From assembly GCA_944389145.1 (NCBI GenBank), contig CALXLH010000014.1, positions 1-64,000 of the forward strand: DNA of 64,000 nucleotides, given 5' to 3'. Source of the stretch: an uncultured Spirochaetaceae bacterium. GTDB lineage: Bacteria; Spirochaetota; Spirochaetia; Sphaerochaetales; Sphaerochaetaceae. The position numbers and the translations under genes are program-made. The stretch's first letter is position 1; every line of letters begins with the position of its first letter. The notes under the pieces are model-generated. The model saw nothing but the letters and a program-made list of their open reading frames with translations. It ran no database searches and was not told the DNA's origin. Positions 1-53,360 of this stretch are shown here, piece by piece.

Positions 1-1714
1 GCCTTATCCTCGTAAGGGAGAGCTCCCTGGTATCGGCCTTGAGTATCTGGTTGTCATGATAGTAATGGCTGAATGTCTTGGCAGCATCATAGAGCACGGT
101 GCATATGACAGAGGGATCGAACGTATCGGCGGCCTTCCTGACAGCCTCAGGGAAGTCTGCGAGCGCCTTCACCAGGATCTTCTCGTCCTCGTTGACAAGA
201 AGCCGTCCATCGCTAGATACCCCGCTGAACTCATCCTTCGAAGCCTCATACCTGCGCAGTATCGAGGATATGCGCGCGGCGGTGTACTGCAGATAAGGCC
301 CGGTATTGCCGCTGAAGGAGATCGACTCCTTGGGATTGAAGACCATATCGCGCATCGGCTGCACCTGCAGCAGGTAGTAGTTCAAGGCGCCTAGCGCGAT
401 CTTCCTCGCCGTCTCATCGACATCCCCGACCTCGCTCTCCCTGCCCTTCTCTATGATCTCGTTCCTGGCAAGGACGGAGAGCTCCGAAAGCAGATCGTCC
501 GCATCGACAACCGTTCCCTCGCGGCTCTTCATCTTGCCCTCAGGAAGATTGACCATGCCATAGGCAAGATGGTGAAGCTCGCTCGCCCACTCATATCCCA
601 GGAGTCCAAGCACATAGAAGAGGACCTTGAAGTGATAGTTCTGCTCTGATGCGACGACGTAGATAAGGCTGTCGAATGGCCAGTCCTCATGGCGCCGTAC
701 CGCAGTACCTATATCCTGAGTGATGTAGAGCGTAGTGCCGTCACGGCGGAGAAGCACCTTCTTATCGAGGCCTATAGGAGCAAGATCGACCTGCACCGAC
801 CCGTCCTCCTCCTTCTTGAAGACGCCCATATCAAGGCCGCGCATGACCTCTCCGCGTCCAAGCTTGTACGTATCGCTCTCATAGTAGAGCTTGTCGAAGG
901 AGATGCCCATGTTCCTGTAGCTCTCGAATAATCCATCCAGGGTCCACCTGTTCATCTTCTCCCATAGCGCGCGGACCTCCGGATCGCCGGCCTCCCAGTC
1001 ACGAAGCATCGCCTGCGCAGCCTCATCCGGATCCACGAACGAAGGATCGCTGACGATGGAAGGATCCTTCTCCTTCGCCTCAGCGGCCTCCTTCTCCCAG
1101 TTGGCGAAACGGACATAGTAGCGGCCGACGAAATGATCACCCTTCTCTCCGGTGGACTCAGGCGTCTCACCATTGCCGAAGAGCTTATAGGCAAGCATCG
1201 ACTTCGATATATGCACGCCGCGGTTATTGATGAGATTGACCTTCATCACATCCGCTCCCGTGGCCTTGAGCAGCTCCGATACGGACTGCCCGAGAGAATC
1301 ATTGCGCATATGTCCGAGATGCAGCGGCTTGTTGGTGTTCGGACATGAGAACTCTATCATGATCTTCCGTCCCTTGCCGCTCTCATTCGTGCCATAGAGC
1401 CTGCCCTCGGCCTCTACCCTGTCCATGATCTTATCAGCAAGGGATGGGATATCGAAACGGACATTGAGATACGGGCCGGCGGGAAGCATCTCGCCCTCCG
1501 GATGATCGGTAAGCCGTGCCGCGATATCAGAAGCGATCACCGCTGGTGCCTTATGGGCAAGCTTGGAGTACGGAAACATAGGGAACGCAGCATCACCCAT
1601 ATCGCTTCTGGGGGGAAGGCCTATAGCCAGCGCAGGGATATCGTCAGTAGAAAGATATGAACGCAGCTCCTTCTCGATCGCGTCCTTCCATGCATTCTTA
1701 AGCTCATTCAGCAT
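1..1714 (-). CDS. argS: Arginyl-tRNA synthetase (3' end outside window)
   Basis: Charges tRNA-Arg with arginine in the cytoplasm (class I synthetase). About 571 codons are visible and the frame is still open at base 1, so the C-terminus lies outside the window. The N-terminal tRNA-binding domain (residues 1-90) is followed by the HIGH-type signature HLGH at residues 131-134 within FSCPNTNKPLHLGH, and KMKS at 393-396. The start at 1714 is preceded by GAGG eight bases upstream and by a good promoter (1735-1763), giving a short leader of about 14 nt. It is transcribed away from birA in the same orientation, so it has its own promoter. Confidence 0.97.
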   Translation of the reverse strand, partial: MLNELKNAWKDAIEKELRSYLSTDDIPALAIGLPPRSDMGDAAFPMFPYSKLAHKAPAVIASDIAARLTDHPEGEMLPAGPYLNVRFDIPSLADKIMDRVEAEGRLYGTNESGKGRKIMIEFSCPNTNKPLHLGHMRNDSLGQSVSELLKATGADVMKVNLINNRGVHISKSMLAYKLFGNGETPESTGEKGDHFVGRYYVRFANWEKEAAEAKEKDPSIVSDPSFVDPDEAAQAMLRDWEAGDPEVRALWEKMNRWTLDGLFESYRNMGISFDKLYYESDTYKLGRGEVMRGLDMGVFKKEEDGSVQVDLAPIGLDKKVLLRRDGTTLYITQDIGTAVRRHEDWPFDSLIYVVASEQNYHFKVLFYVLGLLGYEWASELHHLAYGMVNLPEGKMKSREGTVVDADDLLSELSVLARNEIIEKGRESEVGDVDETARKIALGALNYYLLQVQPMRDMVFNPKESISFSGNTGPYLQYTAARISSILRRYEASKDEFSGVSSDGRLLVNEDEKILVKALADFPEAVRKAADTFDPSVICTVLYDAAKTFSHYYHDNQILKADTRELSLTRIR

Positions 1715-30001: not shown

Positions 30002-30598
30002 TTATCTAATCTTAACTCCTACCATCCTCACTATCGCCAATGCCTGCGATACATCAAGCCTGGCACCCCTCAGTTCCTTGAGGTTCTCGGAGAGCGCCAT
30101 TCCCTCTATATCCGAATCCCCCAGATCGACAGATGCAAGCATGGTAGAACGGAACGATGAGCGGACAAGTGAACAATCCAGGAATGACAGGCCATCGACC
30201 TTGCATTCGGAGAACGAGGAGTCAGAGAGATCGCATCCTGTGATACGTACATCCCTGAGGAATGACAAGTCGAATGTAGAATATATGAGCGATGAACGCT
30301 CGATCGTGAGCGACCGTATGCGAGACCTGGCAAGCGAGGCTCCCGTAAGCCGGCAGTCCCTCATCGTCACGCGCAGGAACGATGATGAGGAGAAATCAGC
30401 AGAGGAGAGATCGCAGGAATCGAATACGACATCGGTCAGGGCCGAATCATAGAATGACGTGGATGGAAATGAGCATGATGTGAATACGGAATCCCTGATA
30501 ACACATCTCGAGAGATCCTCTCCAGGGATGGAAAGAGAGGACAAGGAAAGATCAGAGGCCTCCCCATCCTCCTCTATCATGCGTCTCAGCTCATCCAT
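30002..30598 (-). CDS. Pentapeptide-repeat protein at the end of the his operon
   Basis: 198 residues made mostly of A(D/S)xS/L-type pentapeptides, with aromatic or aliphatic centres every five residues (SSADFSSSSF, LTGASLARSRI, CDLSDSSFSECKV), from residue ~20 to ~175. This predicts a right-handed quadrilateral beta-helix. No signal or membrane segment. ATG 30598 overlaps the hisIE stop by one base (TGATG), so it is translationally coupled to histidine synthesis genes although no histidine role is known for such proteins. DNA-gyrase-binding Qnr-like activity is possible but unsupported. Confidence 0.85.
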   Translation of the reverse strand: MDELRRMIEEDGEASDLSLSSLSIPGEDLSRCVIRDSVFTSCSFPSTSFYDSALTDVVFDSCDLSSADFSSSSFLRVTMRDCRLTGASLARSRIRSLTIERSSLIYSTFDLSFLRDVRITGCDLSDSSFSECKVDGLSFLDCSLVRSSFRSTMLASVDLGDSDIEGMALSENLKELRGARLDVSQALAIVRMVGVKIR

Positions 30599-31206
30599 CA
30601 GCGGGAGTGACGCTCCTTCAGGACCTCGACGACCTCGGCAAGCGTGGAGTCCTTCTGCGCAAGCAGCACCAGGAAGTGATACATCAGATCCGCGGCCTCG
30701 CCTAGGAAAAGCTCCTTATCATCATCCTTGGATTCTATGATAAGCTCAACGGCCTCCTCTCCGACCTTCTGCGCGATCTTGTTGAGCCCCCTTGAGAAGA
30801 GATGGTTGGTATAGGAGCCCTCGACAGGATTGGAACGCCTGTCCTTGATGACTGACTCAAGATAGAAGAGGAATTCGGATGAGGATAGCTCAGATGGCTC
30901 ATTCTCCTCTCCGAAGCATGTATCAGCACCGGTGTGGCATACAGGACCAGAAGGTATCGCCTTGACAAGAAGGGTATCCCCATCGCAGTCGGCAAGTATC
31001 TCCCTAACCTTCAGGAAGTTACCGCTTGTCTCCCCCTTGGTCCATATGCGCCCCCGCGAACGCGAGAAGAACGTTACAAGCCCCCTGTCGAGCGTAAGCT
31101 TATACGCCTCCTCGTTCATATATCCAAGCATCAGCACCCTACGCGTGACAGCATCCTGAACAACGGCCGGAACGAGCCCACCCCCCTTGGAAAAATCAAT
31201 CGTCAT
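30598..31206 (-). CDS. hisIE: Bifunctional phosphoribosyl-AMP cyclohydrolase / phosphoribosyl-ATP pyrophosphatase
   Basis: Steps 2 and 3 of histidine synthesis in one 202-residue chain. The N-terminal HisI domain has RGLVTFFSRSRGRIWTKGE and the zinc-binding CHTGADTCF. The C-terminal HisE domain has NPVEGSYTNHLFSRG, KVGEEAVELIIESKDDD and EAADLMYHFLVLL. It begins three bases after the hisF stop. Confidence 0.96.
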   Translation of the reverse strand: MTIDFSKGGGLVPAVVQDAVTRRVLMLGYMNEEAYKLTLDRGLVTFFSRSRGRIWTKGETSGNFLKVREILADCDGDTLLVKAIPSGPVCHTGADTCFGEENEPSELSSSEFLFYLESVIKDRRSNPVEGSYTNHLFSRGLNKIAQKVGEEAVELIIESKDDDKELFLGEAADLMYHFLVLLAQKDSTLAEVVEVLKERHSR

Positions 31207-31209
31207 CCT

Positions 31210-31980
31210 CTACCTTCCCATCCTGACCGGAATACCATTCTCCCTGAGATATTCCTTAAGCTCTGGGATATCTATCTCATGGAAATGGAAGACGGAGGCT
31301 GCTAAGGCGGCATCTGCCATCCCTTCCACGAAGACTTCCCTGAAATCAGCCATAGTCCCAGCACCGCCTGAAGCGATTACCGGAATACTGATATTACCGC
31401 TGATTACACGGGTTAAGTCAACAGCAAAGCCTCCTTTTGTCCCATCGGCATCCATCGACGTGACAAGAATTTCCCCGCATCCCCTGCTCTCCGCCTCCCT
31501 GGCCCAGGAAAGCGCGTCGATGCCGGTGGGTGTCCTTCCTCCGTCAACGACCGTCTCATAGCCAGATGCCATCGCCGGGTTGGTCACGGCATCAAGGGCA
31601 AGGACGACGCACTGGGAGCCAAAGCGCCTTGAAAGGGTGTCTATAAGGGAAGGAGAGCGTACAGCGGCACTGTTCACGGAGATCTTGTCAGCCCCTGCGG
31701 ATAGGATCCTGTCCACGTCGTCCTCGCTCCTGATACCCCCTCCGACCGTAAACGGGATGGATATCCTGTCAGAGACGGAACGCACAAGCGCAGTCATCGT
31801 TCCCCTGTTCTCCACCGTTGCCGTTATATCAAGGAACACAAGCTCATCGGCCCCTGTGCGGCTATACAGCTCCGCAAGATCCACCGCAGAGCCGGCATCC
31901 CTGAGATCTACGAAGTTAACACCCTTGACGGTACGGCCATCCTTCACATCAAGGCATGGTATTATCCTCTTGGCCAGCAT
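31210..31980 (-). CDS. hisF: Imidazole glycerol phosphate synthase, cyclase subunit
   Basis: Uses ammonia from HisH to convert PRFAR into imidazole glycerol phosphate and AICAR. 256 residues, (beta/alpha)8 barrel, with the catalytic Asp in [18 protein letters not shown] and the second Asp in [15 protein letters not shown], plus VNSAAV and IASGGAGT phosphate loops. It overlaps hisA by 19 bases. Confidence 0.97.
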
Positions 31981-32687
31981 TCAGCCTCCTTCATGTCAGA
32001 TATCGTGATACGTCCCTCATAATAGGCCTTGCCCACGATGGCGCCATAGCATCCGGCATCACGAAGGGCAAGCAGGTCCGTCTTCGACGACACCCCGCCC
32101 GATGCGATGAGGCGAAGCGAGGGAAATGAGGAGAGAAGATTCCCATACAATCCAAGCGATGGCCCGGATAGCATTCCATCGCGGTCTATATCGGTGACTG
32201 CTGCAATATCAATACCAGATAAAAGATAGCTAGATAGGAATGAAATTATATTGATAGAAGTATCCTCACTCCAGCCGGAGACGGCAATTCTTCCAGCCCG
32301 CACATCTGCGCTTAGTATGATGTGTCCGGGATAGGAAGCAGCCCAGCTCCTCACCTCTTCGCCATCCTTCACCGCGGCTGATCCCACGTTGACGGCAGAG
32401 GCCCCCGCGTCGAATGCCCGCCTGACATCCTCAGCGCTCCTTATCCCTCCGCCGAAATCAATGGAGAGCGAGGTATCGCGGGCTATCGCCTCAAGCACAT
32501 CCAGGTTCCTTCCCTGGCCCTTCGCACCATCGAGATCGACAAGGTGAAGCGATGAGAGGCCGCCATCCTCAAAGCGTCGGGCCGCATCCAGCGGAGAGAG
32601 GCCATACCCCTTCTCCTTCGAATAATCCCCCCTTTCCAGCCGTACGAGCCGACCTCCTATCAGATCGATTGCAGGAATTACCTTCAT
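31962..32687 (-). CDS. hisA: Phosphoribosylformimino-5-aminoimidazole carboxamide ribotide isomerase
   Basis: Amadori isomerisation of ProFAR to PRFAR. 241 residues, barrel paralogue of His[21 protein letters not shown] (catalytic Asp), [23 protein letters not shown] and IASGGVSS. I use ATG 32687, which has GGAGG four bases upstream and overlaps the hisH stop (TGATG); a GTG one codon earlier is in frame. Confidence 0.96.
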
Positions 32688-33274
32688 CACGCCTCCAGGA
32701 ATGCCTTGAGAACCCGCTCACCGGCATCGCCGCTCTTCTCCGGATGGAACTGCGTCAGGAAGAAGTTATCATTCACAAGTGCCGCTGAGAACTCAAGCCC
32801 ATCGTATGAGCATACCGCGCTGGTATACTCCGAGACAGGCACATAGAATGAATGGACGAAATACATATACTCATCCTCCTTCACATCCCTGAACAACGCT
32901 CCACTCAGCGAGGAAACCGTGTTCCAGCCCATATGAGGAATCTTGAAGCCACGGCCATCAGGGAAGCGCAGGACCGGGGAAGGTATCACGCCAAGGCATT
33001 CTGTATTTCCCTCCTCGGAATAAGCGCACATCAGCTGCATCCCGAGGCAGATGCCAAGGAACGGCTGCCTCAGCGAGCGTATCGTATCGATAAGCCCGGA
33101 AGCAGAAAGCGATGCCATGGCGCTTGAAGCCTCTCCGACTCCGGGGAATATGACACGGTCGGCAGATCGTATCATATCGGGATCGGCAGTGAGCGTCCCA
33201 TCCACACCCAGACGGCCAAGCGCGGAAAGTACCGAACGCACATTACCCGCGCCATACCGTATCACCGCGATCAT
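32687..33274 (-). CDS. hisH: Imidazole glycerol phosphate synthase, glutaminase subunit
   Basis: Class I glutamine amidotransferase feeding ammonia to HisF. 195 residues. The nucleophile Cys lies in FLGICLGMQLMC (near residue 80); the His/Glu pair is in FFLTQFHPEKSG; the oxyanion region is VIFPGVGEA. ATG 33274 overlaps the hisB stop by four bases. Confidence 0.96.
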   Translation of the reverse strand: MIAVIRYGAGNVRSVLSALGRLGVDGTLTADPDMIRSADRVIFPGVGEASSAMASLSASGLIDTIRSLRQPFLGICLGMQLMCAYSEEGNTECLGVIPSPVLRFPDGRGFKIPHMGWNTVSSLSGALFRDVKEDEYMYFVHSFYVPVSEYTSAVCSYDGLEFSAALVNDNFFLTQFHPEKSGDAGERVLKAFLEA

Positions 33275-34407
33275 AGCACCCCCTTCGTGGATGAGACGGA
33301 ATCATCACCTGGGATACGCCTGACAGCCTTCCGCAGGGCCCTTGCGAACGCCTTGAAGACAGCCTCTGCGGTATGATGGCTGTCCCCACCGCTTGTCGCA
33401 GATACATATATATTGCATCTGGCAGCGGAGGAGAACGAACGGAAGAAATGACGCAGCAGCTCGGTAGGGAACGACCCGACATAGCTCATCGAGAACGCGA
33501 CATCCCACATCAGCTCATCCCGTCCAGAGAAGTCGATGGCAACCGTCGCGGCCGTGTCATCCATCGGAACGATCTCGAAGCCATAGCGCTCTATGCCCCG
33601 CTTCTCTCCCAGAGCCTCAAGCACCGCAGCGCCCAGGGCAAGCGCCGTATCCTCAACGGTATGATGCTCATCAACGTATAAGTCTCCTCTTGCCTCTCCG
33701 AAGATATCGCAGCGGGAATGCCTCACCAGCTGATCAAGCATATGATCGAAGAAACCTATGCCTGTGCGGATATGGCCATTTCCCGTGCCATCCAGATCGA
33801 TGCTTATGGAGACATCTGTCTCATTCGTGGTACGCCTGACAGAAGCCTTCCTATGCTCCTTCACCTCTCCGCAGGTAAGGAACGAGGCGATCGAGAGCCA
33901 GCTATCGGTCTTCAGGACGATCGTATCCTGCAGATCAGAGGGAATCTCCTCAGCACTATCGGTATACCATATTCCCTTCGCGCCCAGGTTGCGCGCCAGG
34001 ATCATATCGGTGAGCCTGTCACCGATCATGAAGGAGGAAGCCAGATCGAACGACCCATCCATATAGCCCTCAAGCATCGCCGTCCCGGGCTTTCTTCCTG
34101 GGCAGCCATCCTCAGGCAGGGAGAAGTCTATGTTCACATCATCGAACATGATGCCCTCGCCACGGAGGGTGGAGAATATCCTCTCCGCCGGCCCTTCGAA
34201 TGATTCGAACGGGAAAGAGGGAGTGCCGACTCCATCCTGATTGGAGACCATCACCAGCTCATAGCCAGTCCGCCTTCCTATCTCGCGGAGGGCCTCGAAG
34301 ACATGCGGCATATAGATTATCTTCTCAAAGCTGTCAATCTGATCCTCTATGACGATCACGCCATCGCGGTCTACGAAAAGGGCCTTCTTCCTATATCTGG
34401 AATCCAC
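33271..34407 (-). CDS. hisB: Bifunctional histidinol-phosphatase / imidazoleglycerol-phosphate dehydratase
   Basis: Enterobacterial-type HisNB fusion, 378 residues. The N-terminal HAD phosphatase (1-~165) has ALFVDRDGVIVIEDQ, VMVSNQDG, a zinc-loop Cys (EDGCPGRKPG) and MIGDRLTDMILA. The C-terminal IGP dehydratase (~185-378) has GIGFFDHMLDQL, DEHHTVEDTALALG and SGGDSHHTAEAVFKAF manganese-binding His clusters. The start is GTG 34407, overlapping hisC by 17 bases. It supplies steps 6 and 8. Confidence 0.96.
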   Translation of the reverse strand: MDSRYRKKALFVDRDGVIVIEDQIDSFEKIIYMPHVFEALREIGRRTGYELVMVSNQDGVGTPSFPFESFEGPAERIFSTLRGEGIMFDDVNIDFSLPEDGCPGRKPGTAMLEGYMDGSFDLASSFMIGDRLTDMILARNLGAKGIWYTDSAEEIPSDLQDTIVLKTDSWLSIASFLTCGEVKEHRKASVRRTTNETDVSISIDLDGTGNGHIRTGIGFFDHMLDQLVRHSRCDIFGEARGDLYVDEHHTVEDTALALGAAVLEALGEKRGIERYGFEIVPMDDTAATVAIDFSGRDELMWDVAFSMSYVGSFPTELLRHFFRSFSSAARCNIYVSATSGGDSHHTAEAVFKAFARALRKAVRRIPGDDSVSSTKGVL

Positions 34408-35437
34408 GCAGGGCCTCCATCACCTTGTCATTCTCCTCCACGCTGCTGACAGAGAATCTCAGGCAGCCTCCAAGGACAGGATCATCAGCATAGCTGCGGA
34501 CGATGATCCTGTTAGCGAGAAGATGCTCATAGAGCTTCCCGGCCTCCGGGGTACGGAAGAGCAGGAAGTTCGTGACGGACGGGAAGACCTCCGTGACATA
34601 CGGAAGCGTCCGGAGGAACGCTGCCATGCGCTCACGCTCCGAGACAGCCTCCCTGACGAGAGCAGCGACCTCATCCTTGCGGCTGAGCATCTCCATCGCA
34701 GCATCCTGCGACAGCCTTGATACGTTGTATGGAGCCTTGGCCTTCATGACAGCCTCTATGACCTCCTCGCAGCCGACTATGATGCCGACGCGCGCTCCTG
34801 CAAGCGCCCAGGCCTTTGACATCGTGCGGAATACGACGATACGGGGATTCCCCATTATACGCTTCCAGAGGCCTTCGGTACCAGTGAAATCGATATAAGC
34901 CTCATCGATTACGGTGATTCCCTTGTTATGCTCGGCTATGCGGAGGATATCATCCTCGGGATACAGGATACCTGTAGGATTGTTAGGAGAGCATATGAAT
35001 ACCAGCTTAGGCCTGTTCTCATCAATCTCGGCAAGCATCCTATCGACATCGAGCATATAATCAGCCCTCTGCGGCACATCGATTGTCCTGACGTCATTGA
35101 GCGTGGCGAATATGCCATACTCGCCGAACGTAGGATCGGAGACAATGATGGAATCCCTGCCAGGCTTGCAGAATATCCTTATGATCAGGTCTATCGCCTC
35201 GTCGGAGCCATTGGTTATGGCGGTCATCCTCCACGGCAGTCCGATGACCTTCTCTATCTCCTTACGAAGCTCCACGCATTGAGGATCGGGATACCTGTTG
35301 ACGCCGTCATTGCCTCCAAGCCATGACTCATTGGCATCAAGAAGGATATCAAGCGGACCCTCGTACCCATCACGCACCGTAAGATAAGGCACGAGCGTCC
35401 TTATCTGCTCATTCATCAGCTCCGTAATCTCACTCAT
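34391..35437 (-). CDS. hisC: Histidinol-phosphate aminotransferase
   Basis: PLP-dependent transamination of imidazole acetol phosphate with glutamate. 348 residues, class I/II fold: NGSDEAIDLIIRIF, FICSPNNPTG, VIDEAYIDF, and the PLP Lys in RTMSKAWALAGARVG. ATG 35437 overlaps hisD by four bases, with GGAGG upstream. Confidence 0.96.
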   Translation of the reverse strand: MSEITELMNEQIRTLVPYLTVRDGYEGPLDILLDANESWLGGNDGVNRYPDPQCVELRKEIEKVIGLPWRMTAITNGSDEAIDLIIRIFCKPGRDSIIVSDPTFGEYGIFATLNDVRTIDVPQRADYMLDVDRMLAEIDENRPKLVFICSPNNPTGILYPEDDILRIAEHNKGITVIDEAYIDFTGTEGLWKRIMGNPRIVVFRTMSKAWALAGARVGIIVGCEEVIEAVMKAKAPYNVSRLSQDAAMEMLSRKDEVAALVREAVSERERMAAFLRTLPYVTEVFPSVTNFLLFRTPEAGKLYEHLLANRIIVRSYADDPVLGGCLRFSVSSVEENDKVMEALRGFQI

Positions 35438-36717
35438 ATCTTCATCCTCCTTACTGCAGCTGCTTCCTTATGCGCAGCCAGGCCCTCGGCCTCTGCCATC
35501 TCCTCGACTATCGGGGCAAGCCTCTCTATGCCTTCCTTCGTCAGCCGCTGTACCGTTATCTTCTTCAGGAAGGAATCCAGGGACACCCCTGAAGAGGAAC
35601 GCGCCCATCCTGAAGTCGGCAGCGTATGATTCGTCCCGGAGGCATAATCCCCGGCGGACTCCGGAGAGTACGGGCCGAGGAATACCGAACCTGCGTTCCG
35701 GACGCCTTCCATTATCCTATCCGGATCAGCTGTGTTGATGATCAGATGTTCCGGCGCATACCCGTTTATAGCATCTATGAGCGCCTCATCGCTATATACG
35801 GGAAATGCCGCGGAATGAGAAAGGGAAGGCAGCACATATTCTCTCCGTCCGAGCTTCTCACACTCTGCCTCAAGCTCCCGCTCTATTCCCTCATATATCT
35901 CCAAAGCCTCTGCCTCGCTCTCTGCGCGTATTGCAAGCATCACCTGGCTGTCCTTGCCATGCTCTGCCTGTGACAGGAGATCGGTGGCGGCAAAGAGAGG
36001 ATCAGAGCTTCTGTCAACGGCAACCATCACCTCGGAAGGCCCCGCGATCATATCTATGGCGACTGTCGAGGAAACAAGCATCTTGGCCGTCGTCACATAC
36101 CTGTTGCCAGGTCCGAAGATCTTATCACGCCGTTCCACGCTCTCCGTACCATAGGCAAATGCCGCGATGGCCTGCGCGCCTCCGACCTTAAGGATCCTTC
36201 CGACACCGGCAATCCTTGCGGCATAGAGGATTGCCGGATTCACGGCCCCATCCCTAGCGGGAGTCGCCAGCATGATATCACCGCACCCTGCGACTGAGGC
36301 AGGAACAGCCAGCATCAGCACGGTAGAGAACAGCGGAGCTGTCCCTCCGGGAATATACAGGCCAACGCGGTCTATCGGCACGATCTTCCGGAAGCACATG
36401 ACCCCGGGCGCGGTCTCAACGGCCTCGCCTTCAGGCATCTGGGCAGAATGGAACGCAAGGATATTCCTCCTTGCAGCATCCATCGCATCCTTCAATGAGG
36501 AAGGAAGGCTTCGCTCTGCCTCATCAAGCTCCTCCTCGCTCACGAAAAGGGAATCAGGCCTCTTTCCGTCAAAGCGCTCTGAAAGGCTTAGCAGGGCATC
36601 ATCACCACCCCTTCTTACCTCATCGATTATCCCCTGTACCGATGCGATTATATCATCACGGCCCTCTTCAGGCCTCTTCAATAGCTCATCAGAGAATCCA
36701 CAGTATCGCAGCAGCAT
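35434..36717 (-). CDS. hisD: Histidinol dehydrogenase
   Basis: Two successive NAD+ oxidations of histidinol to histidine. 427 residues. VDRVGLYIPGGTAPLFSTVLM, AGPSEVMV and DLLSQAEHGKDSQ carry the zinc and catalytic His/Gln residues; EHLIINT and TNHTLPTSGWAR lie in the C-terminal half. Six bases separate hisG and hisD. Confidence 0.97.
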   Translation of the reverse strand: MLLRYCGFSDELLKRPEEGRDDIIASVQGIIDEVRRGGDDALLSLSERFDGKRPDSLFVSEEELDEAERSLPSSLKDAMDAARRNILAFHSAQMPEGEAVETAPGVMCFRKIVPIDRVGLYIPGGTAPLFSTVLMLAVPASVAGCGDIMLATPARDGAVNPAILYAARIAGVGRILKVGGAQAIAAFAYGTESVERRDKIFGPGNRYVTTAKMLVSSTVAIDMIAGPSEVMVAVDRSSDPLFAATDLLSQAEHGKDSQVMLAIRAESEAEALEIYEGIERELEAECEKLGRREYVLPSLSHSAAFPVYSDEALIDAINGYAPEHLIINTADPDRIMEGVRNAGSVFLGPYSPESAGDYASGTNHTLPTSGWARSSSGVSLDSFLKKITVQRLTKEGIERLAPIVEEMAEAEGLAAHKEAAAVRRMKI

Positions 36718-36723
36718 ATGCCA

Positions 36724-37584
36724 TCACTCCGTCATCTTCTCGATGTTCATCACGAGTATGCCCTCTGCACCGATCTCCCTGAGGCTCTCGAATACGGACC
36801 AGAAGCGCTCCTCATCCACCGCAGACTGCACGGATAGCCAGCCGGGATCCATCAAGGGCGTCACCGTCGGGCTCTTCATGCCGCCGATGATCAGGGCAGC
36901 CTCATCGAGCCTGTCCTTAGGAAGGTTGAAGAGGATATACTTCTTCTTCCTCGCCATCATCACCGCATCTATCCTCTCCATCAGGCGATATAGAGTGCGC
37001 TTCTTCTCCTCAGCCATATCGGGACGGGCTATCATCACGGCAGATGAGCGGTATATGCATTCAGCCTCCACGAGCCCATTCATCCTCAGCGTCGTGCCGG
37101 TGGAGACAAGATCCGCGATCGCATCTGCCACTCCGATCTGCACCGTTATCTCCACAGACCCGGAAACAACTACCAGCTCCGCGCTCACGCCTGCCTTATC
37201 GAGGACGCTGCGGAGTATGCGAGGATATGAGGTGGCGATGCGCTTGCCTTCAAGCGACCTGAGTCCCTTATAGTCAAATGAGGCAGGAACGGCGATCGAC
37301 AGGCGGCAGGAAGCGAACTTCAGATCCCGTACGACCTCAAGCTCAAGCCCTGTCTCATCGTATTCATTGCGTCCGACGATACCGATATCGGCAATGCCAT
37401 CGGAGACATAGCGCGGTATATCATCATCACGCACGAACAGGAACTCTAGCGGAAAGTTATCGGCAACCTCCCTAAGCACCCTGGAGTCCGTTCCGAAGTC
37501 GATCCCGCACTGCCTGATGATATCAAGGCTCTTCTCTGACAGCCTTCCGCTCTTCTGGACCGCTATGCTCAGCATCTCGCTCAT
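36724..37584 (-). CDS. hisG: ATP phosphoribosyltransferase, long form
   Basis: First committed step, ATP + PRPP to PR-ATP. 286 residues: the catalytic periplasmic-binding-like domain (VQKSGRLSEKSLDII, ADIGIVGRNEY, PRILRSVLDKAGV) plus a C-terminal ~80-residue ACT-like domain for histidine feedback, so HisZ is not needed. The ATG at 37584 has AAGGAGG four bases upstream and lies 15 bases after the T-tract of the attenuator. It would be controlled by both attenuation and allostery. Confidence 0.96.
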   Translation of the reverse strand: MSEMLSIAVQKSGRLSEKSLDIIRQCGIDFGTDSRVLREVADNFPLEFLFVRDDDIPRYVSDGIADIGIVGRNEYDETGLELEVVRDLKFASCRLSIAVPASFDYKGLRSLEGKRIATSYPRILRSVLDKAGVSAELVVVSGSVEITVQIGVADAIADLVSTGTTLRMNGLVEAECIYRSSAVMIARPDMAEEKKRTLYRLMERIDAVMMARKKKYILFNLPKDRLDEAALIIGGMKSPTVTPLMDPGWLSVQSAVDEERFWSVFESLREIGAEGILVMNIEKMTE

Positions 37585-37599
37585 ACGCCCTCCTTAACG

Positions 37600-37627
37600 A
37601 AAAAAGGCCTCCGCCAAAGGGAGACCT
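37600..37627 (-). terminator. his operon attenuator (intrinsic terminator)
   Basis: On the - strand AGGUCUCC - CUUUGGC - GGAGGCCU (eight pairs, one U-G) followed directly by UUUUUU, ending 15 bases before hisG. Confidence 0.85.
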
Positions 37628-37664
37628 CGATATACAAGAAACCCATCATGGCATGGTTGCATGA

Positions 37665-37700
37665 CTAGCAAGCATGATGATGGTGTACGTTTCTGTTCAT
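37665..37700 (-). CDS. hisL: his operon leader peptide with four consecutive His codons
   Basis: 11-codon ORF encoding MNRNVHHHHAC, with codons CAC CAT CAT CAT, then TAG. It sits 37 bases before the attenuator stem. The His-codon run (37677-37683) can pair with 37643-37649, so a ribosome stalled for charged tRNA-His would free that downstream segment, the logic of enterobacterial hisL. There is no Shine-Dalgarno; TATCGT ends exactly 6 bases before the ATG, so the leader peptide itself appears to start at the 5' end of the mRNA. The enterobacterial peptide has seven His codons; here there are four. Confidence 0.85.
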   Translation of the reverse strand: MNRNVHHHHAC

Positions 37701-37706
37701 GCTCAG

Positions 37707-37735
37707 ACGATAACCCAGCCGCGAGGCATGGTCAA
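37707..37735 (-). promoter_or_regulatory. his operon promoter, leaderless geometry
   Basis: TTGACC - 17 bp - TATCGT - 6 bp (ctgagc) - hisL ATG. It is the best-supported example of the window-wide layout because the following peptide is independently recognisable. Confidence 0.7.
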
Positions 37736-37769: not shown

Positions 37770-38456
37770 TCACGTCAAATCCGCGTACTTCATCAATATA
37801 CGTACAAGCTCATGCATCCTGGCGGCCGGACACATCGCAGAAGGAGGAGTATCAGGCTCATACCGAGCATATAGCCTTTCAGCCCTCGAAACCGCATCCC
37901 TGATGCCACCAAGCATCTTCTTGAAGATATCCGCATCGGTCTTGCCGTAATCGCAATGCCGCTCAAGAAGGCCAAGATACCCTTCACGCCCTATATTCAC
38001 AATAAGATCCTGGAAATGCAGCAGGAACCACAGTTCTACGCACTCGTTGGACCAGGCAACCCTTATACGCCTGTGATCATTATAGGATTGCGCGCTGAAT
38101 TGGGTATTATCGAAATCATCGGCAGGGAAATCATCCTTATCATAGACGAGCCATATCTCTTCAGCATTGGGGCAAGCCGTGCCTACGGTGGCAACAGCCT
38201 CTTCCAGAAGCCTGAGACAGCTCCTTCCAAAACCTCTGATCACTACCCTTCTCCTTGAAGAATACGCGCGGAATCTCCTGTTTATCATATCTGCGAATCC
38301 CTCAAGATAGCGAACTTCTGTTACCGTCCCTTCTGCTACAATATAAATATATGGAGGGAGAGGATCTATCATAGTCTTCTTCCTCCGGGCCATCTTCTCA
38401 TCTATCCTTTTCTGCAGCTGCTTCCGGTCACCTTTCTTCATTGGCCTGTTGCTCAC
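37770..38456 (-). CDS. rloB: RloB-family protein (AbiLii-like)
   Basis: 228 residues. A basic N-terminus (KKGDRKQLQKRIDEKMARRKK) precedes the RloB core: YIYIVAEGTVTEVRYLEGFADMIN, EIWLVYDKDDFPADDFDNTQF and ARVAWSNECVELWFLLHFQD-like strands. The conserved acidic residues (E in AEGTVTE, DKDD) are those expected of a TOPRIM-like metal site. GTG 38456 overlaps the rloA stop (GTGA), so the two are one unit; an alternative ATG is at 38441. Homologues pair with RloA in restriction loci and with AbiLi in the AbiL abortive-infection system. Antiphage function is inferred from family. Confidence 0.85.
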   Translation of the reverse strand: MSNRPMKKGDRKQLQKRIDEKMARRKKTMIDPLPPYIYIVAEGTVTEVRYLEGFADMINRRFRAYSSRRRVVIRGFGRSCLRLLEEAVATVGTACPNAEEIWLVYDKDDFPADDFDNTQFSAQSYNDHRRIRVAWSNECVELWFLLHFQDLIVNIGREGYLGLLERHCDYGKTDADIFKKMLGGIRDAVSRAERLYARYEPDTPPSAMCPAARMHELVRILMKYADLT

Positions 38457-39703
38457 CCATCAACCTCCCAATCAAGGCCTCTCGCTATATATGGATCCGC
38501 ACCATAATGCCCTTCAAGGTATCGCTTGCTATAGATCTCATCCTTGCGTACCTTCCGGCCCCTCTCATCCGAGAAGGAGACAAGGGAATATAGATTAGAT
38601 GAGTTATCATAATCCTGAGAGCAGAACCATATCTCATCCCGGCGGAACACATCGGGATTCATGTTTACCATATCATGGGATGTCAATATGAGCTGAGCCC
38701 CGTTCTTATTGATAGAAGGATCCGTAAATCCCTCTATGATATACCGCAGTATCTTCGGATGAAGCTTGGCATCAAGCTCATCAGCCAGAAGCAGCCTGCC
38801 AACTTCAAGATATTGATTTATCCTTGCCAGGCAGCTGAACAGCTTTCTCGTGCCGCTCGACTCATCCTCAAGCCTGAGTTCATGCTCCTTTCCGCCGACG
38901 GAATGACGTGTGAATACTTCCCTTATCCTTCCATTCTCATCATATTCAACACGCATACCGGAGATGTTTATATCCATCTCCTGCAGCATCGCCACCATGC
39001 GCTTCTGTATAGCCTCCCCCTTGGGAATCAAAGCCATATGATCCTTTCCCGGCTCATCATAGTTCATGACGGTAGCATAACGGAACCATCCTGCAGCCTT
39101 ATTCACGATCTCGATATCATATGCAGCTGAGATATATGAGATAAGCGGAAAACTACCACGGACCTTATCAAGGGGAAGTCCTTTCAGCTCATTTCCGACC
39201 TCAATACCATCATCCGATCTCTCGAACACGACGCGGGCATTGCGTCTTCCTATCTCACGGCCATACAGGTTCTCCCTGATGATATTCCCATGGATAAGCG
39301 ACAGCTCATACTTGAACTCATAGCCTAGATTTCGATACAGCACCTCGAATTCCGTCGGCTCCTCCGCACACTCTTCGCAGAACTTGAAATAGATATCCTT
39401 CCGTGGCGGAACTGCCTGATACGGCGGTTCATCCTCCCCGACCTCATCAGCAGAGCCTACCTTCCCCGCCTGCATCATGAAGATAGGAACATTCACGAAC
39501 CTCCCAAGGTAATCCAGGGCATCAAGGACAGTAGACTTTCCTCCGCCATTAGGTCCATATATCGATATAACAGGAAGGAAGCGCTGCCCATCCTTATCGG
39601 TTATAAGGCTCTCCTTATGCTCCGAGATCGATTCAGCAAAGAGATCAAGAAATGCCTCACCCTTGAATGATTTATAGTTACTGAATGTGAACTGACAAAG
39701 CAT
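38453..39703 (-). CDS. rloA: RloA-type AAA ATPase (AbiLi-like)
   Basis: 416-residue SMC/OLD-like ATPase. FSNYKSFKG at the N-terminus, Walker A GPNGGGKST at residues 50-58, a signature-like SSGTRKLFSCL, Walker B RLLLADELDAKLHP (near residue 305) and the switch HD in ILTSHDMVNM. No nuclease domain is fused; the effector would be RloB. AGGAGG lies four bases before ATG 39703. It reads towards the his operon and ends before its promoter. Confidence 0.87.
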   Translation of the reverse strand: MLCQFTFSNYKSFKGEAFLDLFAESISEHKESLITDKDGQRFLPVISIYGPNGGGKSTVLDALDYLGRFVNVPIFMMQAGKVGSADEVGEDEPPYQAVPPRKDIYFKFCEECAEEPTEFEVLYRNLGYEFKYELSLIHGNIIRENLYGREIGRRNARVVFERSDDGIEVGNELKGLPLDKVRGSFPLISYISAAYDIEIVNKAAGWFRYATVMNYDEPGKDHMALIPKGEAIQKRMVAMLQEMDINISGMRVEYDENGRIREVFTRHSVGGKEHELRLEDESSGTRKLFSCLARINQYLEVGRLLLADELDAKLHPKILRYIIEGFTDPSINKNGAQLILTSHDMVNMNPDVFRRDEIWFCSQDYDNSSNLYSLVSFSDERGRKVRKDEIYSKRYLEGHYGADPYIARGLDWEVDG

Positions 39704-52812: not shown

Positions 52813-53325
52813 TCAGACCCTCTTCTTTGCCTTGAGCCTGGCCTTGTTCTTCCTCTCATAGGACCTTATGACGGCCTTCCTGTCGCTCTCGGAAAGGTGA
52901 TCGATATAAAGCACCCCGTGGAGATGATCGTTCTCATGCTGTATGACACGGGCCAGCAGGCCCTCGGCCTTGAGCGTGAACGGCTTTCCATCAAGATCCT
53001 GGGCCTGGACAGTGACAGAAGCCGGCCTTATCACATCATGATAGACGCCAGGCACGGAGAGGCATCCCTCCTCATAAGGGCACTCCTCTATGCTCGTCTC
53101 TATGATCGACGGATTGATGAAGTACATAGGCGCGCTGCCGCTTATATGCACGACAAAGATCTTCTGCGATACTCCGACCTGCGGTCCGGCAAGCCCGACC
53201 CCATCCGCCTCATCAAGCGTATCAAGCATGGCATCGGCCAGCATCCTCAGCGCTGGATCGAATTCCGTTATATCCTTGCATTCCTCACGAAGGACATCGT
53301 CCCCGAGCGTATAGATATCAAGCAT
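52813..53325 (-). CDS. def: Peptide deformylase
   Basis: Removes the formyl group from nascent N-terminal Met. 170 residues with all three family motifs: GVGLAGPQVG, EEGCLSVPG and the HENDHLHG metal site. The basic C-terminus (RKNKARLKAKKRV) may contact the ribosome. It is the first gene of a seven-gene run; its ATG has TACCGT ending 6 bases upstream and no Shine-Dalgarno. Confidence 0.97.
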   Translation of the reverse strand: MLDIYTLGDDVLREECKDITEFDPALRMLADAMLDTLDEADGVGLAGPQVGVSQKIFVVHISGSAPMYFINPSIIETSIEECPYEEGCLSVPGVYHDVIRPASVTVQAQDLDGKPFTLKAEGLLARVIQHENDHLHGVLYIDHLSESDRKAVIRSYERKNKARLKAKKRV

Positions 53326-53331
53326 ATGGTT

Positions 53332-53360
53332 ACGGTAATGAAAGCAAGGATAATCGTCAA
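53332..53360 (-). promoter_or_regulatory. def operon promoter, leaderless geometry
   Basis: TTGACG - 17 bp - TACCGT - 6 bp (aaccat) - ATG. It diverges from the fucO promoter 14 bp away. Confidence 0.65.

Follow-up and report, generated by a model that had tools for sequence, protein, structure and literature searches.

The his operon leader of Proteobacteria, hisL (RF00514), encodes a run of His codons and combines alternative hairpins with a terminator before hisG in an operon of the his GDCB... type; its hairpin set is longer than three segments. Attenuation by a his leader peptide is classical in Proteobacteria and has been predicted in some Firmicutes (PMC9413887), where the leaders of the Bacillus cereus group, Peptostreptococcaceae and Erysipelotrichales carry three to five His codons together with a predicted terminator and antiterminator; the parts of that source dealing with these leaders do not mention a leaderless start. 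Leader peptides encoded at the very 5' end of the transcript are known from other operons. In Sinorhizobium meliloti the attenuated trpL RNA begins at the AUG and holds its regulatory codons in the first segment (PMC7298713), the leuL, trpL and ilvL leaders of Streptomyces lividans are leaderless ORFs with amino-acid runs (PMC8079986), Cys-rich leaderless uORFs of mycobacteria have been proposed as attenuators (PMC4633059), and some of these streptomycete and mycobacterial leaders are accompanied by intrinsic terminators (PMC8079986, PMC4633059).

The locus described here lies in a window of 64,000 nucleotides (the whole stretch of DNA that was analysed) from an uncultured Spirochaetaceae bacterium of the gut. 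We consider it highly probable that the his operon is attenuated here at the level of transcription by a ribosome-mediated mechanism, in which translation of the leader peptide begins at the mRNA 5' end. Compared with Proteobacterial hisL this leader is shorter, consists of three segments and, as predicted, has neither a Shine-Dalgarno sequence nor a 5' UTR before the leader peptide. The enterobacterial hisL scheme that an earlier note on this DNA had invoked holds for the His-codon leader peptide and for the terminator before hisG, whereas the three-part layout is trpL-like and the leader matched neither RF00514 (His_leader) nor the T-box nor any other relevant Rfam family, at the gathering threshold or up to an E value of 10. 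The trpL leader of S. meliloti in its turn concerns tryptophan and trpE(G) in Alphaproteobacteria and has no sequence relation to the spirochaete leader (PMC7298713), the leaderless leaders of Streptomyces and mycobacteria serve other amino acids in Actinobacteria, with no His example in PMC8079986, and the Firmicutes attenuators belong to another phylum. The function and logic of the locus are those of known leader-peptide attenuators; the combination of histidine, a leaderless start, three segments and a spirochaete family appears to be undescribed. The literature searched, which did not include a broad 2010 survey of attenuation, contained no his attenuator or leaderless leader peptide in spirochaetes.

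All elements of the leader are found on the minus strand and at the positions given in the earlier note, in the order TTGACC-17-TATCGT-6-ATG, His-codon ORF and terminator. The -35 element TTGACC (37730..37735), recognised by reading the sequence and by a promoter scan, has its TTGAC conserved in relatives, and the -10 element TATCGT (37707..37712) stands 17 nt from it and 6 nt (CTGAGC) before the leader AUG. The leader ORF (37665..37700, with its ATG at 37700) has 11 codons and reads MNRNVHHHHAC*; it is predicted to be leaderless, with the AUG at +1. Three segments were defined in what follows, namely the four regulatory His codons CAC CAT CAT CAT (segment 1, 37674..37685, read directly from the sequence), a downstream GRUGGGUUUC-like element (segment 2), here CATGATGGGTTTC (37638..37650), which pairs with the His codons (1:2) or, by prediction, with the 5' arm of the terminator (2:3), and that 5' arm itself (segment 3, 37628-37620). 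The intrinsic terminator hairpin (37604..37628) has the sequence GAGGUCUCC-CUUUGGC-GGAGGCCUU followed by a T run, which gives the U-run read at 37602..37607, and 15 nt separate it from the hisG ATG at 37584, so that the layout is compact, with about 100 nt from AUG to terminator. A scan gave the hairpin 9 pairs; its energy was -13.9 kcal/mol, a value equalled by 4/200 shuffles, and the whole leader of 102 nt folded with -35.3 kcal/mol (z -4.3), which is unusually stable. Judged by the window alone, neither promoter nor terminator exceeded what shuffled sequence yields (1 found versus 1.4 and 1.2 expected); what raises both above chance is that the ensemble is conserved in 50/52 distinct spirochaete hisG upstream regions.

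Downstream of the leader the operon begins with a long-form hisG (36724..37584, minus strand; TIGR00070, TIGR03455) that has an AAGGAGG Shine-Dalgarno sequence, and continues almost without gaps on the same strand with hisD, hisC, a bifunctional hisB (HisN-B) and hisH (32687..36717), all identified by NCBIfam matches. Gene order and sequence suggest that the minus-strand reading frames 3' of hisH (30598..32687) are hisA, hisF and hisI(E). Directly upstream of the leader lie two genes (37770-39703, minus strand) with PADLOC matches to the phage-defence pair AbiL (AbiLi E 9e-75, AbiLii E 7e-24).

The closest named hisG loci belong to metagenome-assembled genomes of Spirochaetaceae and Spirochaetales and to Candidatus Ornithospirochaeta, and further out to Sphaerochaeta, a genus in which the culturable S. 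halotolerans 4-11 (L079) carries the same leader. For the comparison we took 52 distinct spirochaete upstream regions of long-form hisG, with duplicates removed, and in 50 of them hisG was preceded by an ORF that opens with AUG, is 11-18 codons long and contains 2-6 codons for His, and by a terminator (the terminator of L064, which the automatic filter missed, was counted by eye). The His run that the earlier note had asked to be sought in related genomes is hence conserved, with a codon usage over the 50 leaders of 131 CAT and 48 CAC. The coding frame from the AUG to the His run was kept in all 50, the length differences being whole codons, and TTGAC was present at the -35 position of every spirochaete leader seen, two of them (L017 and L018) being read by eye. 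L007 and L009, the two regions without the leader, have neither the promoter nor the terminator, and the 3 kb upstream of their hisG contain no His-run ORF elsewhere; the elements are conserved jointly and absent jointly, and the case in which the terminator would have been kept and the His run lost was not encountered. In L007/L038 and L009/L036 the place before hisG is taken by a different sequence containing TTTGCTAGAGATTAGAATCC or a similar one, with no leader, promoter or terminator of the attenuator type. Four congeners (G005, G013, G022 and G031) gave only a weak match to the hisG product (about 30% identity over about 200 residues), which suggests that they may carry a short-form HisG of different origin.

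Of 395 genomes in the class, 76 were matched by a covariance model built from the transcribed part alone. Four of these (L188-L191) had no His ORF and were excluded as chance terminators; most of the remaining 72 come from the family of the window's organism and a few represent at least three others, and the His ORF was present in the matches read individually. On this evidence leader-peptide attenuation of histidine synthesis very probably reaches a spirochaete family, in which at least 50 distinct leaders keep the compact layout, and it occurs in a few additional families within the class.

Of the 50 spirochaete leaders, 48 have 6 nt between the -10 element and the AUG, and the other 2 have 7 nt. 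These gaps were scored from the best -35/-10 pair over gaps of 2-12 nt, and the automatic result was 6 nt in 44/50; in L017 and L018 the script had taken an upstream in-frame AUG and in L030 and L031 a neighbouring hexamer, giving 8-9 nt where reading by eye gave 6 nt. When loci were collected with a covariance model whose first position is the AUG, and which is hence blind to the promoter, 36/42 had 6 nt and the rest 7-10 nt; these 42 overlap with the set of 50. Shine-Dalgarno-like motifs preceded the leader AUG in 4/50 regions, as against 48/50 for hisG. A -10 element that ends at position -7 would place +1 on the A of the AUG, and the fixed gap together with the near lack of Shine-Dalgarno motifs points to the same predicted start. 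The start of the leader peptide is likely to be leaderless, judging from this promoter geometry, and the claim that the leader ORF opens at the mRNA 5' end is upheld as a prediction.

It may be argued instead that the attenuator is real and its transcript starts some bases upstream, leaving a short 5' UTR without a Shine-Dalgarno sequence. Start sites can slip by a few bases, one locus (L199) has a gap of 10 nt, and the Bacteroidota counterparts, in which a His-rich leader peptide was present in 27 of 31 genomes reached through related hisG, have a promoter box-to-AUG gap that varies from 4 to 11 nt when the box is complete, several of them with the AUG 4 nt from the TAnnTTTG box. Against this stand the near-constant spirochaete gap, which is kept despite divergent discriminators, the scarcity of Shine-Dalgarno sequences, and the AUG found in every leader, although the leader search in relatives accepted AUG starts only. 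We consider such an upstream start improbable, if not negligibly so. Since the gap varies in Bacteroidota, the strictly leaderless start is a spirochaete feature within this comparison.

The pairing of the His run with 37643-37649 proposed in the earlier note was borne out, as its CCATCAT is complementary to an ATGATGG at 37649-37643 and the resulting 8-nt helix was reached in 0/300 spacer shuffles. Because the MAFFT alignment slips in the repeated His codons, we tested pairing sequence by sequence in 19 dissimilar spirochaete representatives. Own partners paired better than swapped ones in the 1:2 hairpin (z -3.4; 1/5000 permutations), and contiguous 1:2 complementarity averaged 5.95 pairs against 4.28 in shuffled spacers (Fisher P 2e-6). 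Eight of the 19 have a short His-codon helix of 5 contiguous pairs (shuffle P 0.18-0.39), and in 3 more (L054, L060 and L070) there is no contiguous run. The terminator showed changes on both sides at 7 of 8 consensus pairs among 39 relatives. For the 2:3 antiterminator pairing the comparison of own and swapped partners gave z -1.5 (334/5000) in the same 19 representatives, and in the species of the window the 2:3 hairpin has about -7 kcal/mol, no better than shuffles.

In ensemble folding of the 19 representatives, computed on RNA before the 3' arm of the terminator is made, free RNA had its terminator 5' arm paired with upstream sequence at a mean probability of 0.23. Placing a ribosome over the first His codon raised this value to 0.60 (Wilcoxon P 1e-5), as compared with 0.45 in both states for shuffled spacers. 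Masking the His codons barely changed the pairing of the arm in two representatives (L008 and L024), and in L014 the pairing fell slightly. Despite the weak 2:3 pairing, the folds together behave in line with expectation. The regulatory codons sit in a hairpin that competes with the predicted antiterminator, as the 1/5000 of the permutation test and the shift from 0.23 to 0.60 indicate. Of the mutually exclusive folds expected by the earlier note, the His-codon hairpin and the covarying terminator are well supported and the antiterminator is weakly supported.

These sequences make it very likely that a His-codon leader peptide attenuates the his operon. Sequence and comparison establish the ORF, the promoter geometry, the His-codon hairpin and the terminator as well as their joint presence or absence, whereas the start at the AUG, the antiterminator and the response to histidine are predictions. 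RNA polymerase would start at the A of the AUG, as the fixed distance to the -10 element implies, and a ribosome would load on the bare AUG without a Shine-Dalgarno sequence. When charged tRNA-His is scarce, this ribosome would stall on the His codons and hide segment 1, and segment 2, thus freed, would pair with segment 3 and allow read-through into hisG. When histidine is plentiful, or when no ribosome has loaded, the His codons would pair with segment 2, leaving the terminator arm free to form the terminator before hisG. Least certain is how a terminating ribosome would lead to the OFF state. With the leader masked as far as a ribosome on the stop codon, mean sequestration in the spirochaete representatives was 0.57, and because this resembles the value for stalling, the likelier way of switching off seems to be that the ribosome is released and the His codons pair again.

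From these considerations we tentatively propose, as something possible rather than probable, an attenuator that needs neither a ribosome-binding site on the leader nor a ribosome bound at its stop codon, in which the nascent 5' end is the sole point of entry for ribosomes and switching off follows from release and re-pairing or from failed loading. If this were so, the his operon would be off by default and would sense both charged tRNA-His and the capacity of the cell for leaderless initiation, a single ribosome in effect deciding for a single polymerase.

The Bacteroidota hisG leaders share with the spirochaete ones the His-rich peptide, the terminator and a long-form HisG (about 50% identical). 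Ensemble folding of seven of them gave an arm sequestration of 0.72 with a stalled ribosome versus 0.17 with one at the stop codon. In six of the seven (L071-L076) the stop codon of the leader peptide falls within the antiterminator, in a GGTAAGC that pairs with GCTTAC, so that the terminating ribosome itself would block the antiterminator. The two groups contrast in this way, the Bacteroidota leaders having a variable distance from promoter to AUG and, in those folded, a stop codon in the antiterminator. Because the distance from promoter to AUG is fixed in the spirochaete leaders, these form a clean natural set for studying how leaderless initiation can keep up with RNA polymerase during attenuation. 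In Flavobacterium psychrophilum a structured element that has no Rfam match has been noted in front of hisG (PMC9723704), and no detailed description of the Bacteroidota his leaders (L071-L076, L203-L233) was found in the literature searched.

Whether the hairpin belongs to the his operon at all has to be considered, given that the neighbouring upstream gene shares its strand and that the end of this gene, at 37770, is about 35 nt away from the -35 element, as would be expected if the hairpin were the terminator of the AbiL-like pair and the His-rich ORF incidental. A promoter stands in between, the His run is kept in 50/52 regions, and leader and terminator stay before hisG while the gene upstream of them changes from one group of relatives to another and in several relatives has the opposite orientation, from which we conclude that the terminator belongs to his. 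The comparative evidence of a varying neighbour refutes this assignment to the AbiL-like genes, to which we leave only the slightest chance. We regard as extremely improbable, too, that histidine is sensed by an RNA independent of leader translation, such as a T-box, or that the leader is bound by a protein: the his operons of Firmicutes and Actinobacteria do use T-boxes or HisR, as far as the account in PMC9413887 extends, but the present leader matched no Rfam family at either the gathering or the relaxed threshold, and the frame from AUG to His run is kept in every leader, with lengths that differ by whole codons.

The leader might alternatively control the translation of hisG rather than its transcription, through ribosome delivery or reinitiation, and reinitiation from leader genes near structural genes has been proposed to raise expression (PMC4833913). 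The leader stop codon is nevertheless 65-105 nt before hisG, a covarying intrinsic terminator with its U-run lies between the two, and hisG has a strong Shine-Dalgarno sequence of its own in 48/50 regions, all of which makes translational control very improbable when set against transcription attenuation.

The leaderless leader peptide that the earlier note had singled out stands as a prediction for this locus, with the qualification that it is not new in principle (PMC7298713, PMC8079986) and that leaderless-type starts are enriched in the genome. The pattern TTGA-18..20-TANNNT-5..7-ATG occurs 74 times in this genome versus 17 for the reversed pattern, and many of the 74 ATGs open long reading frames, which suggests that leaderless mRNAs may be in wide use in the lineage. 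In a published survey, 6 of 18 spirochaete genomes had detected leaderless genes, which made up about 4% of genes (PMC3160421). Given this enrichment and that survey, the leaderless leader is better seen as a habit of the lineage than as a unique device. Among the readable sites, which are most of the 74, no other leaderless amino-acid-rich short ORF before a terminator was present in the same genome. In the window itself, a gene named from its sequence as peptide deformylase (52813-53325, minus strand) has another such leaderless-type start, TTGACG-17-TACCGT-6-ATG (53323-53360).
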